Origin: Nitrospira sp. bin75
Lineage (GTDB): Bacteria > Nitrospirota > Nitrospiria > Nitrospirales > UBA8639
Reading direction: 5' to 3'
NCBI GenBank assembly: GCA_002238765.1
Contig: MPMZ01000024.1
Span: 1 to 42,098 of the forward strand
Length of the DNA: 42,098 nt
Shown: in pieces, positions 6,610-37,330 of the stretch
Numbering within the stretch: the stretch's first letter is position 1
Layout of the letters: every line of letters starts with the position of its first letter
Program-made: the position numbers and the translations under genes
Notes under the pieces: generated by a model
Told to the model about the DNA's origin: nothing
The model's database searches: none
Seen by the model: only the letters and a program-made list of their open reading frames with translations

Positions 6610-6750
6610 TTCCCCTCCTTTGTAAGGAGGGGCGAAGGGGAGGTAGAGGGGGTGTCTGGAGGGAGAATCGCGCTGAGTGGTTCCTTTTGGTGCGGCCGCG
6701 CCAGTACGACTCTACCCCACCTGACCTCCCCTTACAAAGGGGAGGAAAAA
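6610..6750. repeat. Paired inverted repeat element, family A (copy 2), between btuF and btuC
   Basis: Left arm CCCCTCCTTTGTAAGGAGGGG continuing into GGGAGGTAGAGG; right arm CTCTACCCCACCTGACC followed by CCCCTTACAAAGGGG. The arms are inverted with about 65 bases between them. This fills most of the 279-base gap inside what should be one riboswitch-controlled operon, so it would be transcribed and could fold between the two genes. Confidence 0.8.
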
Positions 6751-18888: not shown

Positions 18889-19266
18889 TCAGAACGCGAT
18901 ACGCCGGACGCCGTCGACCACGTCGAAATGCGTATCGTTGCTCAACACCGGGAGCGCGTGCTGGCGGGCCAGCGCCGCGATCCAGGCGTCATTCGGCGCG
19001 ATGGGATGGCCCAGCCGTTTCAATTCCAGGCGGATGTCGGCATAGGCATCTGCCGTGGCCGAAGTCACGGCGGCGATTTCAGCCAACGGCAAATAGCGGC
19101 GCAACCAGTCCTCGTAGCGGCTGCGATGCCGCGATTGGCGAATGCCGAAATAATACTCACCGAGAACCACGCTCGGCACGACGAGCCGGTCGGCGGATCG
19201 AAAAGCGGCCTCCACCGTCGTAAGCCCTTCCACCCACGCGGATAAGGCATTGGTACCGAGGATCAT
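18889..19266 (-). CDS. vapC: VapC-like PIN-domain toxin with a missing catalytic Asp
   Basis: 125 residues with the PIN fold. Family members cut RNA with a cluster of acidic residues. The second to fourth are visible: Glu37 (VLGEYYFG), Asp93 (APNDAWIAAL) and Asp111 (SNDTHFD). The first, in the N-terminal xDTNxLS motif, is Gly here: MILGTNALSAW. The codon is GGT, one base away from GAT. The gene start overlaps the antitoxin stop by four bases. Toxicity is therefore doubtful; a single substitution or a sequence error are both possible. Confidence 0.88.
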   Translation of the reverse strand: MILGTNALSAWVEGLTTVEAAFRSADRLVVPSVVLGEYYFGIRQSRHRSRYEDWLRRYLPLAEIAAVTSATADAYADIRLELKRLGHPIAPNDAWIAALARQHALPVLSNDTHFDVVDGVRRIAF

Positions 19267-19514
19267 GTGATGTCTTCGGGGGAGAGGGTCTCGAATTCCT
19301 GCTCGATAACGGTAAGAACTCGGCGGTTTTCGTCCGAGAGGTCAGAGAGAGCGCCGAACCCGGCCATCCAGGGTGCTTCGGTGTTGCCGGAGCAACGGCG
19401 GAACTGTTCCTCAAGCGCTTCGGTAAAGAAACGCTTCAATGTCATGCCGCGGCCGGCAGCCAAGGCTTTGGCCTGCCGAAACGTGGCGTCAGGTAGTTCA
19501 ATAGTGGTTTTCAT
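19263..19514 (-). CDS. vapB: VapB-like antitoxin
   Basis: 83 residues. The N-terminal part MKTTIELPDATFRQAKAL is the ribbon-helix-helix DNA-binding segment of antitoxins of this kind; the C-terminal half should wrap the toxin. It precedes and overlaps vapC by four bases. A perfect 10-base inverted repeat directly upstream (19519-19546) is its probable operator. Confidence 0.85.
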   Translation of the reverse strand: MKTTIELPDATFRQAKALAAGRGMTLKRFFTEALEEQFRRCSGNTEAPWMAGFGALSDLSDENRRVLTVIEQEFETLSPEDIT

Positions 19515-23727: not shown

Positions 23728-23846
23728 CCTCTACCTCCCAACTTTTCCCTCTTCGGAAAAAGTTCCCGTCCTTGCAAAGGAGGGGAAGCAGGAGGGAACG
23801 CCTATAGTTTCCTCCCCTTTGTAAGGGGAGGCTAGGTGGGGTAGAG
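23728..23846. repeat. Paired inverted repeat element, family A (copy 3)
   Basis: The left arm CTCTACCTCCC carries an inner hairpin AACTTTT-CCCTCTTCGG-AAAAAGTT and ends GCAAAGGAGGGG. The right arm is CCTCCCCTTTGTAAGGGGAGG followed by GTGGGGTAGAG. It is directly upstream of the ProA-like gene; copy 4 lies directly downstream of it. Confidence 0.8.
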
Positions 23847-23892
23847 AGTGTGAACCGGGGTATAGACAAACTTTTGAGTTGAGGGTTAAAGA

Positions 23893-25248
23893 ATGGTTGA
23901 AGTTCCTATCAAGCTGCATCTTCAAGGTCTTGCCAAACAAGCCAATGCCGCAACCCGTGCCTTGGCGTTGATGACGGGCCAAGAGCGCGCCGTGGCGCTC
24001 GAGGCCATGGCGGAACGGTTGGAAACGAGCATGGAAGACGTGTTGACGGCCAACAAACGGGATCTCGATGCCATTCCCAAGGAGTGGGGACCGGATGAGT
24101 ATCGGAAAGCGAGAGAACAGATTTCCATGACGGAAAACACCCTTCTCGATATGGTCGCCTTTATCCGTAAGATTGCAGAGGAACCGGATCCCACGGGGGA
24201 AGTGTCGCAGGGATGGTTGACGCAAGACGGCCTGCACGTGCATCGGGTTCGTGTCCCGATCGGGGTGATCGCCGTCATTTCCGAATATGGCCCGTCCGTG
24301 GTGGCCGAATCGATGGCGATGTGTCTCCGCTCGGGAAACGTGTGCGTGGTGCGTGGGGGAAAAGAATGGTTTTGGACGAATTCCACGGTCGCCAGGGTCT
24401 TGCGCGAGGCGGCGGAACAACACGGTGTTCCCCAAGGGGCGCTCACGTTTGTGGATCGCCCCGACCGTGAGGGCGTGCTTGAACTGGCCCGGTTGCGCAA
24501 CGTGGTGCACGGCGTCGTTCCAAGGGGGAAAGCGAGCTTGCGCAAAGCCGTGATGGAGCAGTCACGCGTCCCGGTCCTGGGGTATGACGGAGGCTTGTGC
24601 CACGTCTACGTGGATAAAGACGCGGACGTGCCGTTGGCTCAAGGGATCGTGGTGAATTCCAAGATCCAGGATCCGGTTGCCACCAATGCCGCGGATACGC
24701 TGTTGGTCCATCAGGCCATCGCACGGCAGTTACTGCCCGGCCTGCTCCGGCGGTTGCTCAGTGAATTTACCGTGGATCTCATCGGCTGTCCGAAAACCGT
24801 CTCCATGATGGGCATCATGGCCATGACCGGGCATAAGGGGATTCGAGCGGCCACGGACGAGGATTGGGAACACAAAAGGCAATCGCCGGAGCTGGGCATC
24901 AAGATCGTCAATAATCTCGACGAAGGTCTTACCCACATTGCGGCCTACGGACCGGGACATACCGATACCATTGTGACCCGTCGTTATGAAACCGCGATGC
25001 GCTTCGTCCGGGAAGTGGATTCCGGTTCGGTGTTGGTGAATGCCTCGACCCGCCTGCATTCAGGGCCGCAAATGGATTTGGGTGAGGAACTGGGAATCAA
25101 TACGTCTCATTTCCACGTGAGAGGGCCGTTGACGCTTCGATCCCTGACCACTGAAAAACACGTCGGGTTCGGGAACGGTCAATTACGACAACCCCATCCT
25201 GTTCCCCAGGCGTATCAGGATGCGATGATGCTGTCCTCCAAATTCTAG
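23893..25248 (+). CDS. ProA-like aldehyde dehydrogenase lacking the catalytic Cys
   Basis: A 451-residue homologue of glutamate-5-semialdehyde (gamma-glutamyl phosphate) reductase ProA, second step of proline synthesis. Many ProA motifs hold: RVRVPIGVIAVI, LRSGNVCVVRGGKE, GYDGGLCHVYVD, and the C-terminal DLGEELGINT plus RGPLTLRSLTTEK. The catalytic-Cys motif, normally PGVCNAxETLLV, reads PVATNAADTLLV with Thr264 (codon ACC) in the Cys place, and the EARPNVT loop is replaced by SEYGPSVVAES. Real ProA activity is therefore doubtful. It may be a repurposed paralogue, or an inactive one; a true proA would be expected elsewhere in the genome. It has no proB neighbour and is flanked on both sides by family A repeats. 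Confidence 0.85.
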   Translation: MVEVPIKLHLQGLAKQANAATRALALMTGQERAVALEAMAERLETSMEDVLTANKRDLDAIPKEWGPDEYRKAREQISMTENTLLDMVAFIRKIAEEPDPTGEVSQGWLTQDGLHVHRVRVPIGVIAVISEYGPSVVAESMAMCLRSGNVCVVRGGKEWFWTNSTVARVLREAAEQHGVPQGALTFVDRPDREGVLELARLRNVVHGVVPRGKASLRKAVMEQSRVPVLGYDGGLCHVYVDKDADVPLAQGIVVNSKIQDPVATNAADTLLVHQAIARQLLPGLLRRLLSEFTVDLIGCPKTVSMMGIMAMTGHKGIRAATDEDWEHKRQSPELGIKIVNNLDEGLTHIAAYGPGHTDTIVTRRYETAMRFVREVDSGSVLVNASTRLHSGPQMDLGEELGINTSHFHVRGPLTLRSLTTEKHVGFGNGQLRQPHPVPQAYQDAMMLSSKF

Positions 25249-25272
25249 GAAGCCCCTGCTCCACGATTAAGA

Positions 25273-25308
25273 AGTCCCGGTTGCAAATGTCGGGGCCCGT
25301 TTTTTTCT
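25273..25308 (+). terminator. Possible weak terminator after the ProA-like gene
   Basis: A short GTCCCG / CGGGGC stem with an 11-base loop is followed by CCGTTTTTTT. The T7 run is convincing, the stem (four to six pairs) is weak. Confidence 0.4.
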
Positions 25309-25428
25309 TCCCCTCCTTTGTAAGGAGGGGCAAAGGGGAGGTAGAGTCTGTAGAGAGGACGACGAAATTCTATCCTCCATCGGCTGTTGGCTCTACCCCA
25401 CCTAACCTCCCCTTACAAAGGGGAGGAA
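25309..25428. repeat. Paired inverted repeat element, family A (copy 4)
   Basis: Left arm CCCCTCCTTTGTAAGGAGGGG with GGGAGGTAGAG; right arm CTCTACCCCACCTAACC with CCCCTTACAAAGGGG. Arms and orientation match copy 2 at 6610-6750 while the inner spacer is unrelated in sequence. Confidence 0.8.
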
Positions 25429-25497
25429 ACGAGAATATCAGCGCACTCTTAAAAGCCTCCCGTTGCGTTCTCATGGCGCACGGTCCGGTTTCCTCCC

Positions 25498-26925
25498 ATG
25501 GCCGAATTGGACATTGCCCGGCATCTTGCCCAATGGGGACTTCGCAGGTTTCCTGATGAAGATGCCTATTATGCCTGGCAACGGCAATCCTTATCCGGAG
25601 AGCGGCTTCGGCTGCTCCAGCAAACGGCTCAAACCCGGCACGACGGAGGAGGCGCGGATCAAGCCTTTTATGATCTGGCGGCGTCTCCCGACGTGCTTCC
25701 CGTTTTATACAGCCAGCGATACGGCTACTACCACGAACTCGGCCCGGCGATCGTGAACGTGCTGGAGGGGGCCCTGCGCGTGTTGGACGTCGGGTGCGGG
25801 GTCGGGATTCTCACAACCTGGTACGCGGCCTGTTTTCCGAATGTGACGTTCCTGGGCATCGACCGGTCCCTGCAATCGATTGAAGTGGCGCGACAGTTCG
25901 CTCAATCACGTCATCTCGATAACGTCAGCTTCCGTCATTGCGACATTCCTCAACACGAGATCCCCGGAACATTCGATACCATCGTGTCCACGCAAGCCCT
26001 GTTTCAATCGGAATCCGATCCGGGGCTTCCGAGCCGGAGTTGGACGACCTTTGAACGCGACCGGGATGCCCGGCAACAACGCGAGTTGGAAGAGCGGACG
26101 GGCATCGGTCCTCGTTTGGACCTGCTGTTGCAGGTGCTGGAGTCCCCGGGCCGGTTCGTCCTCTTTGAAAAGGCCGTTCACTTGGGAAGACGCGTGTTGT
26201 TCCAGCGGGCACTGGAAGCCAGAGGGTGCGTTGCCGTTGCAGAGCCGCGGCTGCTGACGTATTCGGAACTCGGGGAGCCGGTCGAGGAGGGGCCTTTATA
26301 CGTGATGGCACGAGGCCCGGCTGTTCCCGCGGAGGTGTTACGGGAAGACGTGCGGCACGATCCGCAACAGGGGCTGTATCGTTGCCAAGGGGCTCATGCA
26401 GATTTCGTCTATGCCAGGTTGCCGAAAGATAACGCACATTCGGATAAGGCGGTTGCGACGTTCGGAGATAAGGACGGCTGGTACGAAACGGGTCGCACGG
26501 TTGGTGGATTGGGATATGTCCGTCTCATGATTCATGAGACGGATTCCGGTTTGCTGGTCGGAATGGTGGAACAGCAATCCCTGATGGTCGAACTCGTCAG
26601 ACATGAGTGGCAACAGGGGGCCGGACTGACGCGTATCCGGCCGGAACAAGCGAGTGGTCCGGCCGAAGAGGCTCCTCTGTACGAAAACCATTTCCCCGTG
26701 GCCGAGCAGGTGTGGCAACAGCTTCCGGACCGGGTGGTCCTGCGGCAGCAGACCGACGAGGACGCGGAGGGGCGACAGCGTCACATCGAATATGGCCGCT
26801 GTGCCGGAAATCTCCATTACCTGTATTGGGCGAATACCTTTGATCAACGGCAAATCGTGATCATGGAGCAGGAGCGAAGCACCATTCTGGAGACGTATTT
26901 TTCCGAAGCGATCGGTGAAGGCTAA
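25498..26925 (+). CDS. SAM-dependent methyltransferase with an unrecognised C-terminal domain
   Basis: 475 residues. Residues about 90-200 form a class I methyltransferase: motif I VLDVGCGVGILTTWYA, the acidic end of strand 2 in FLGIDRSLQS, and FDTIVSTQALFQSE as motif IV. Before it is a helical segment with two Tyr-rich motifs (SQRYGYYHE). After about residue 290 comes a 180-residue part I cannot assign, with repeated beta-type segments (GYVRLMIHETDSGLLVGMVE; NLHYLYWANTFDQRQIVIME) that resemble each other and may be a duplicated domain. Starts at ATG 25498. Substrate unknown. Confidence 0.75.
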   Translation: MAELDIARHLAQWGLRRFPDEDAYYAWQRQSLSGERLRLLQQTAQTRHDGGGADQAFYDLAASPDVLPVLYSQRYGYYHELGPAIVNVLEGALRVLDVGCGVGILTTWYAACFPNVTFLGIDRSLQSIEVARQFAQSRHLDNVSFRHCDIPQHEIPGTFDTIVSTQALFQSESDPGLPSRSWTTFERDRDARQQRELEERTGIGPRLDLLLQVLESPGRFVLFEKAVHLGRRVLFQRALEARGCVAVAEPRLLTYSELGEPVEEGPLYVMARGPAVPAEVLREDVRHDPQQGLYRCQGAHADFVYARLPKDNAHSDKAVATFGDKDGWYETGRTVGGLGYVRLMIHETDSGLLVGMVEQQSLMVELVRHEWQQGAGLTRIRPEQASGPAEEAPLYENHFPVAEQVWQQLPDRVVLRQQTDEDAEGRQRHIEYGRCAGNLHYLYWANTFDQRQIVIMEQERSTILETYFSEAIGEG

Positions 26926-26963: not shown

Positions 26964-26982
26964 TTTGCATTCAAAGTGCAAA
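26964..26982. promoter_or_regulatory. Inverted repeat before the DUF4143 ATPase gene
   Basis: TTTGCA-N7-TGCAAA ends eight bases before the ATG at 26991. It could be an operator; the Shine-Dalgarno position falls inside or beside it, and no canonical ribosome-binding site is visible. Confidence 0.4.
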
Positions 26983-26990
26983 AATATGAC

Positions 26991-28214
26991 ATGTCTTCGT
27001 TGTATATCAGTCGCTCGCTGGAACCGGTCCTCAAGAAAGCGGCCTCCGAGTTTCCCGCCGTGGTCCTGACCGGGCCACGCCAATCCGGCAAGACGACTCT
27101 CCTGCAACATCTCTTCGGCAGTCGTTATCGTTACGTATCCCTGGAGCCTCCCGACGTGCGTGCAGCCGCTACGGAAGATCCGCGCGGTTTCCTGGAGCTG
27201 TATCCGTCGCCGGTCATCTTCGATGAGGTGCAGTACGTCCCCGATCTGTTTCCCTACATCAAGGAAAAGATTGACGCGGAGCGCGCCAGGAAAGGGCAAT
27301 ATCTGTTGACCGGTTCACAGCATCTGTTGCTCACCGAGAAGGTGGCTGAGTCATTGGCCGGCCGCGCGGCTATGCTTCGACTGTTTCCGCTGTCGAGGCG
27401 TGAAGCGGAGGGTCGGCCGCGGCTTGGCTTCGTCTGGGAGCGCAAGCGCCCATCGTCTTCATGGTCGTCGCATGCTTTTGCTGAACTGTGGAGGGGCTTT
27501 CTTCGAGGCGGGTACCCGGAGCTTGCGGCACAACCCAACCGGGACGTGTCACTGTGGCATGCCAGCTACATTCAGACTTATCTCGAACGGGATGTCCGCT
27601 CGATCCGGCAGATCGGAGACCTGACCCAGTATCAGGGTTTCCTCCGCGTGCTGGCGGCGCGAAGCGCACAACTCGTGAATCTCAGCGATGTTGCCAGGGA
27701 CCTCGGGGTCGCGGTCAACACCATCAAGGCTTGGCTCTCCGTGCTTGAAGCGACCTACCAGGTAATCGTGCTTCGCCCGTATTTCGCCAATGTCGGCAAG
27801 AGGCTCGTCAAGACCCCGAAAGTGTATTTCACCGACGTCGGGACGCTCTGCTACTTGGCGGGTCTCAAGGATCCCGAACATGCGATTTCCGGTCCCATGG
27901 GCGGTGCCATCATGGAAACGGCGGTGCTGTCCGAAATCGTCAGGACCCTGACGCATCGGGGAATCGACCCGCAAGTCTACTTTTGGAGGACCATGGCAGG
28001 AACGGAAGTGGATTTTGTCGTCGAGACCGGTGCAGGGTTGATTCCCATCGAGGTGAAGTTATCCGCGACGCCACGGCTGGCCATGGGCGGCGCCATCAAG
28101 ACGTTCCAAGGGGACATGAAAAGCGCGGCGATGCCGGGCTACGTGGTGCATCCTGGCGACATACGCCTACCCCTCGGTCCCGGCGCGACCGCGCTGCCTT
28201 TCGCCGACCTGTAG
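26991..28214 (+). CDS. AAA-type ATPase with DUF4143 C-terminal domain
   Basis: 407 residues. The N-terminal AAA part has Walker A TGPRQSGKTT (about residues 27-36), a Walker B with VIFDEVQYVPDL, and sensor-type LTGSQHLLL. The C-terminal DUF4143 half includes YIQTYLERDVRSI, the winged-helix like segment DLGVAVNTIKAWLSVLEATY, and KVYFTDVGTLCYLAGL. A nuclease-like C-terminal motif (YFWRTMAGTEVDFVVE...IPIEVKLS) follows the restriction-endonuclease-fold E-VDFVV-EVK pattern. These genes are common, often scattered and of unknown role. The start at 26991 is chosen over an ATG 15 bases upstream. Confidence 0.9.
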   Translation: MSSLYISRSLEPVLKKAASEFPAVVLTGPRQSGKTTLLQHLFGSRYRYVSLEPPDVRAAATEDPRGFLELYPSPVIFDEVQYVPDLFPYIKEKIDAERARKGQYLLTGSQHLLLTEKVAESLAGRAAMLRLFPLSRREAEGRPRLGFVWERKRPSSSWSSHAFAELWRGFLRGGYPELAAQPNRDVSLWHASYIQTYLERDVRSIRQIGDLTQYQGFLRVLAARSAQLVNLSDVARDLGVAVNTIKAWLSVLEATYQVIVLRPYFANVGKRLVKTPKVYFTDVGTLCYLAGLKDPEHAISGPMGGAIMETAVLSEIVRTLTHRGIDPQVYFWRTMAGTEVDFVVETGAGLIPIEVKLSATPRLAMGGAIKTFQGDMKSAAMPGYVVHPGDIRLPLGPGATALPFADL

Positions 28215-37054: not shown

Positions 37055-37065
37055 TCAGATTCTTT

Positions 37066-37330
37066 TCCTCCCCTTTGTAAGGGGAGGATGAGCTAGGCAT
37101 GCCCCCGCGAAAGCGGGGGTGGGGTAGAGTCCGCAGTTTTCCCTCCCCTTTGTAAGGGGAGGCCAGGTGGGGTAGAGTCCGAACGTCGGGTGACTGCAAA
37201 TGCTTCTACCTCCCCTCCCCCTCCTGATCCTTCGGCTACGCTCAGGACAGGCAAAGGAGGGGGATAGATGCCTCTACCTCCGAACTTTTCCCTCTTCGGA
37301 AAAAATTCCCGTCCTTTCAAAGGAGGAGAA
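37066..37330. repeat. Cluster of family A repeat arms with nested insertions
   Basis: Four arms of family A in a row. The first (37066-37130) is split by a hairpin CCCCCGC-GAAA-GCGGGGG at 37102-37119. The second and third (37139-37262) share with copy 1 the spacer CCGAACGTCGGGTGACT. The third arm is split by CCTGATCCTTCGGCTACGC..CAGG (37223-37251). The fourth (37271-37330) contains the inner hairpin ACTTTTCCCTCTTCGGAAAAA seen in copy 3. This fills the 327-base gap between menG and the radical SAM gene. Confidence 0.8.

Follow-up and report, generated by a model that had tools for sequence, protein, structure and literature searches.

Does a gene that family models assign to glutamyl phosphate reductase (ProA), and that lacks the catalytic cysteine of this enzyme, still serve proline synthesis, or has it taken on another role? 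The locus in question lies in Nitrospira sp. bin75 (GenBank assembly GCA_002238765.1; 3.04 Mb, 115 contigs, 97.8% complete), on a stretch of 42,098 nucleotides (contig MPMZ01000024.1, positions 1 to 42,098 of the forward strand) that we refer to as the window. A preliminary description of the window, made from the sequence letters, had reported a ProA homologue with threonine at the catalytic cysteine, flanked by repeat elements, and had proposed a repurposed paralogue. We call this gene P and the methyltransferase gene that follows it MT, and the features discussed below are as follows.

23893..25248, + strand: P, pseudo-ProA of 451 aa, a ProA family member without the catalytic Cys (frame, family models)
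24280..24303, + strand: replaced substrate loop of P, residues 130–137, SEYGPSVV versus canonical YESRPNVT (alignment)
24682..24684, + strand: Thr at the catalytic Cys position of P, codon 264 = ACC (alignment, codon read)
24874..24876, + strand: Lys where canonical ProA invariably has the E[FY]L Glu, codon 328 of P (alignment)
25189..25245, + strand: P-specific C-terminal tail, residues 433–451 (QPHPVPQAYQDAMMLSSKF) (alignment)
25498..26925, + strand: MT, class I SAM-dependent methyltransferase protein of 475 aa (Pfam Methyltransf_31/25 over cut-off)
25274..25296, + strand: terminator-like hairpin with T-run in the gap between P and MT (1 found versus 4.0 expected in shuffles, hence weak)
23765..23846, no strand: bystander element upstream of P, a dispersed palindromic repeat
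25307..25430, no strand: bystander element in the gap between P and MT, likewise a dispersed palindromic repeat

P belongs to the ProA family and has lost its catalytic residues

The P frame is uninterrupted over its 451 residues, and the protein scores above both NCBIfam cut-offs for ProA, NF001221 (399.5 bits vs 289) and, by less than 1 bit, TIGR00407 (318.2 vs 317.45). The solved ProA structure 1o20 aligns with residues 14–432 at 283 bits, placing P in the ProA family by near full-length homology. An AF2 model of P, computed with 18 related rows as input, was poor (pLDDT 57).

We aligned 100 distinct P sequences with 69 canonical ProA sequences, the latter comprising 33 from two families of the order that carries P (f1 and f2), 28 from the rest of the phylum and 8 from other groups (plasmids). 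Where P reads VATNAADTL, residue 264 corresponds to a cysteine in 69/69 canonical ProA and in 0/100 P, confirming the TNAAD reading at the CNAxE motif, with Thr264 encoded by ACC, and showing that P lacks the cysteine by which this motif defines ProA. The occupant of position 264 varies across P (Ser 42, Ala 28, Thr 17, Pro 13), which makes threonine an unlikely new nucleophile; we rejected Thr264 in this role, and the conservation of Thr264 that the preliminary description had suggested looking for among relatives is not seen, the absence of Cys being what all 100 sequences share. The glutamate of CNAxE is Asp in 100/100 P.

Further losses surround the old active site. The Glu of E[FY]L, which from its position we take to be the aldehyde dehydrogenase (ALDH) residue contacting the nicotinamide ribose, is present in 69/69 canonical ProA vs 0/100 P (Gln 74, Lys 24, Pro 2). 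The substrate loop, previously described as replaced, is indeed changed from ESRPNVT or EARPNVT to SEYGPSV; its Arg (column 133), found in 69/69 canonical sequences, is not among the commonest P residues, its Asn is also not kept, and Ser130 is present in 99/100 P. The glycine-rich columns 155–157 and 210–213, presumably part of the cofactor site, are partly eroded. Altogether, of the 106 columns in which canonical ProA shows a conservation of 95% or more, 51 remain at or above this level in P, among them Asn255, Lys257, Asn265, Arg387, glycine motifs and columns of the segment RGPxxLxxLTxxKxxxxGxGQ, which, from the description of P5CS (PMC8963878), we take to be the C-terminal oligomerisation segment. 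The earlier statement that the remaining ProA motifs are kept was thus too generous, the E[FY]L Glu, the loop Arg and Asn and the STRxxD Asp being among the columns not kept.

The STRxxD motif deserves separate mention. In Drosophila P5CS, the reductase nucleophile is the cysteine C598 (PMC8963878) and glutamyl phosphate is bound by R712 and D715 (PMC11061531); by our own reading, R712 and D715 map to the STRxxD segment. P retains the Arg of this segment (Arg387) in 100/100 sequences and the Asp in 6/100, vs 69/69 for the canonical Asp, and so does not carry the Arg and Asp pair for glutamyl phosphate binding.

A nearby cysteine taking over catalysis would have spoken against repurposing. None of the 27 P-specific columns is a cysteine, and Cys299, found in 100/100 P, also occurs in 59/69 canonical ProA and was therefore not gained by P. 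Column 230 is Cys in 69/100 P, Gly in 28, including the source gene, and Lys in 60/69 canonical sequences. A migrated cysteine was rejected on these grounds, Cys230 being missing from the source gene and Cys299 being common with canonical ProA.

The source genome encodes canonical proline enzymes elsewhere

A search of the source genome recovered a canonical ProA (C37:34224-35465) with the motifs CNAME and EFL, to which P is 43% identical over 400 aa, together with ProB (433 bits) and ProC (286 bits). Had P been the only proA, the proposal of a repurposed paralogue would have been undermined; with a Cys-type ProA, ProB and ProC all encoded elsewhere, it is supported. No two of P, proA and proB share a contig. 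From the presence of ProA, ProB and ProC we infer that the organism is a proline prototroph and, on this gene content, it is not dependent on P for proline. In many sequences from the genus, an acidic stretch of ~35 residues extends canonical ProA at its N-terminus (EEEIDESTEPVDSPEEEIVEEEIVD; source copy L007 1105-2463).

Distribution, origin and selection of P

A profile of P was run against 295 genomes drawn from the phylum and found P in 97, all of them in families f1 and f2 of a single order, which includes nitrite oxidisers. P-level scores (at least 479 bits) occurred in 96 genomes (19 in f1, 77 in f2), and the next matches listed reached at most 430.4 bits. In the 97th genome (G243, f2; L157, G243:C47), a stretch of N interrupts P, with MT behind it; this looks like an assembly gap and not gene loss. 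A second match to the profile was present in 91/97 P genomes; the other six (G187, G205, G230, G232, G239, G283) gave a single match, and a canonical copy was not seen there. Two genomes outside the order, G066 and G191, gave two matches each.

Within the genus, P and a second copy occur in 14/14 genomes. Excluding the source gene itself, genus P sequences are 74–92% identical to source P, and the second copies, with CNA and E[FY]L present, are 41.8–44.0% identical to P over the best segment. A scan of genome contigs with a pair of short patterns derived from the genus alignment, which distant homologues can escape, returned 17 P loci, all from Nitrospirales, Nitrospirae, Nitrospirota or Nitrospira metagenome-assembled genomes (MAGs). 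Among plasmids, 93 records matched; the 30 listed are at most 37.0% identical to P, and none aligns past residue 439.

In a tree rooted with 8 ProA sequences from other phyla, P forms a clade with support of 100/100. It joins canonical ProA from its own order (100/99), and the canonical ProA of a third family, f3, falls outside. This topology indicates that P arose once, when the ProA of this order was duplicated on the stem leading to f1 and f2, and a long branch (0.51) followed. In a ProA survey covering 641 sequences from 622 species, duplications were found in 16 species and were dispersed and patternless (PMC11061531); P, by contrast, is clade-wide and of single origin.

Apart from G243, the frame is intact in all 100 distinct sequences (447–457 aa). 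Within the genus, P has a median dN/dS of 0.123 (85 pairs) and canonical ProA one of 0.102 (91 pairs); the f2 median for P is 0.113 (594 pairs, with dS being high in f2). Judged by these ratios, P is under strong purifying selection, and the earlier view of an intact 451-residue frame that is not decaying (dN/dS ~0.12) holds.

A near-invariant C-terminal tail distinguishes P from ProA

Ten of the 27 P-specific columns lie in the C-terminal tail, where P-specific conservation is densest and which is away from the old active site. The tail motif PHPVPxxYxDAxML is near-invariant in P and missing from the 69 canonical ProA, with P434, H435, P436, V437, P438, Y441, D443, A444, M446 and L447 each found in 99–100/100 P. 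Among five regions of P compared within the genus, the tail has the lowest dN. A DNA pattern for PHPVP has 4 matches in the source genome, and the YxDA continuation is found in the P gene only. Outside the tail, Asp268, Gln250, Arg217 and Arg287 are P-specific and near-invariant.

A methyltransferase gene accompanies P

Directly behind P lies MT, whose Methyltransf_31 match scores 58.8 bits. Both the motif I and the Rossmann-type domain of class I SAM methyltransferases are present, and the DxGCGxGxLT columns are conserved across 26 rows. A fold search that covered mainly residues 4–274 matched the protein, up to about residue 275, to class I methyltransferase folds with Z of 16.5–18.1 over 164–223 residues (rmsd 2.4–6.2), the match to 9j56 having Z 18.1 and rmsd 3.0 over 199 residues. 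The best PDB sequence match, PKMT2 (5doo; 45.6 bits), covers the SAM domain only (profile positions 82–169), and 5doo is not among the fold matches listed for MT. In its N-terminal part, MT thus resembles class I SAM methyltransferases such as RdmB/DnrK, NodS, TehB and the Rickettsia protein lysine methyltransferases; it differs from them in a C-terminal domain (PLYENHxPSAQ...YLYxANTFDQRQ) for which four fragments searched against Pfam gave no match. The middle of MT (26299-26658) is an extra, poorly conserved domain of ~90 residues that occurs in f1 and a few f2 genomes (G254, G291) and is missing from most f2 genomes.

P is followed by MT on the same strand at 120/120 loci, many genomes being represented by two loci, with a gap of 4 to 307 nt (median 98). 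In a neighbourhood survey of 38 loci, MT follows P wherever both frames were picked, the crude ORF picking having lost the P frame in 3 and the MT frame in 3 (five loci in total). The wider context changes, with rpsB, tsf, pyrH and frr lying beside P in f1 and not in the f2 genomes read. An AAA_14/DUF4143 ATPase gene follows MT in the window (26976-28214); the same cluster was found in 4/38 loci only and is therefore outside the conserved pair.

In the phylum draw, the MT profile matched 97/295 genomes, the same 97 that carry P, and 0/198 others. Across the order, MT was found in 205/235 genomes, and in 144/153 of those of good quality; it is missing from all 8 f3 genomes listed, and the remaining misses, either in f2 or unlisted, include good-quality genomes (e.g. 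G346, 99% complete). A plasmid search for MT gave 4 partial methyltransferase matches. Evolutionary distances of P and MT co-vary beyond the canonical ProA control, with a partial r of 0.74 among 31 genomes and 0.70 in the genus; in f2, the value is 0.34, below that for P and canonical ProA (0.51), so co-variation lends weak support to the P–MT link. The adjacency could partly reflect slow rearrangement within one order, though the wider context has changed. Taken together, the comparative data suggest that P is probably functionally linked to MT.

Repeats flanking P are dispersed elements

The flanking repeats noted previously are present on both sides of P and include an inverted pair of 40 nt with 98% complementarity (23807-23846 and 25391-25430); they are, however, dispersed genome-wide and not specific to the gene, with 58 genome matches to the upstream stretch and 43 to the downstream one. 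Because of this dispersal, we rejected the repeats as part of a module with P. Palindromic repeats of the CCTCCCCTTTGTAAGGGGAGG type occupy 23740-23892 and 25249-25430, and also occur elsewhere in the window, for example at 6610-6739 and 37064-37330. An ORF between P and MT in the window is spurious and repeat-borne. The hairpin and the repeat in the P–MT gap make strict co-transcription doubtful in the source genome. At a distance from this locus, on the minus strand, an ORF at 18889-19266 is preceded by a short ORF (19263-19514) beside an alr-like ORF; this pair (18889-19514), a PIN-like ORF with a short ORF, is presumably a toxin–antitoxin system of VapBC type.

Possible functions of P

P shares with ProA (PDB 1o20, 8zok, 4ghk; GPR domain of P5CS) its fold family and a near full-length alignment, as well as the Asn beside the Cys position, the STRxxD Arg and the oligomerisation segment. 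It differs from ProA in being without the catalytic Cys and the E[FY]L Glu, in the replaced substrate loop and Asp, in its extra tail and in its methyltransferase neighbour. The tail and the neighbouring MT, both missed by the preliminary description, are the most telling features of the locus. Given these losses, P can be said with high confidence not to be a glutamyl phosphate reductase; homologous to ProA, with catalytic residues lost and a gene kept under purifying selection, it has the sequence hallmarks of a pseudoenzyme.

The explanation that we favour, at about even chances, is that this ProA-derived pseudoenzyme acts as a non-catalytic partner of MT. P would no longer reduce glutamyl phosphate, and, in the most likely form of the mechanism, a P dimer would bind MT through the tail and would activate or position it, or else present a residue or ligand for methylation, with the tail among the candidate substrates. 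Since the tail directly follows the C-terminal oligomerisation segment through which ProA forms dimers, two tails per dimer are possible, which could dock MT or be methylated. A stricter version, in which P and MT make up a dedicated two-component system of this order with the dead proline enzyme as an obligate subunit of an unrelated methyltransferase and its tail docking or being methylated, we hold tentatively, as somewhat less probable.

We consider it unlikely that P instead pairs with canonical ProA in mixed dimers, or docks on ProB, to tune activity or channelling, with MT acting separately or in a modulating role. The retained oligomerisation segment and the presence of canonical ProA in every P genome of the genus (14/14) would fit such a regulator. 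The GPR dimer forms by way of a strand that one monomer places on its partner (PMC8963878), and dead paralogues that activate a partner have precedent (PMC6221367, PMC10211241). However, the genes for P, ProA and ProB are spread over three contigs, canonical ProA is near universal, which makes its co-occurrence with P uninformative, and the constant MT neighbour is left unexplained.

A similarly doubtful idea is that P, still in possession of part of the dinucleotide site, is a new enzyme whose reaction differs from that of ProA and needs no Cys, MT methylating the product or substrate of that reaction. In its favour, roughly half of the columns conserved in canonical ProA are retained, Asn255, Lys257, Asn265, Arg387 and the glycine motifs among them, and the near-invariant, P-specific Asp268, Gln250, Arg217 and Arg287 suggest a defined pocket or surface; yet Ser, Ala, Thr and Pro all occur at position 264, the presumed cofactor-site columns 155–157 and 210–213 are partly eroded, no Cys is P-specific, and P-specific conservation is densest in the tail and not at the former active site. 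Retention of glutamyl phosphate reductase activity with Thr/Ser or Cys299 as the nucleophile is highly improbable, for all that P passes both ProA cut-offs (TIGR00407 by less than 1 bit) and has an invariant Cys299: position 264 is Ala or Pro in 41/100 P, Cys299 is shared with 59/69 canonical ProA, the counterparts of the Glu, the loop Arg and the Asp are gone or almost gone, and a canonical ProA is present in the genome. A decaying duplicate or annotation artefact can be set aside as having a negligible chance, as the one broken P, in the MAG G243, is broken by an N run, dN/dS is ~0.12 and the 100 other distinct frames (447–457 aa) are uninterrupted.

Relation to known pseudoenzymes and implications

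A pseudoenzyme with the ALDH fold is already known in human ALDH16A1, which no longer has the residues for catalysis and is presumed to work via protein partners (PMC10650815); unlike P, it belongs to the ALDH16 subfamily and not to ProA/ALDH18, and the text consulted on it reports neither a methyltransferase partner nor such a tail. The prozymes of T. brucei AdoMetDC (PMC6221367) and TbPRMT1 (PMC10211241) resemble P in being conserved dead paralogues beside a live enzyme; they pair with their own homologue, whereas the constant genetic partner of P is an unrelated methyltransferase. Our search of the open-access literature found nothing on a ProA pseudoenzyme or on the P–MT gene pair. Pseudoenzymes as such are already known; what is new here is one of ProA type that is fixed across most of an order, has a tail that hardly varies and is paired with a methyltransferase gene.

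For the organisms concerned, the practical consequence is that family models call P genes proA, so that members of the order are credited with two proline enzymes, one of which is almost surely not in that pathway. P very probably does a new, non-proline job, as its conserved losses and gains indicate, and would represent a pseudoenzyme of ProA type in bacteria, accompanied by a conserved partner gene. If the stricter two-component version is true, a dead enzyme would be controlling an enzyme of a different class.
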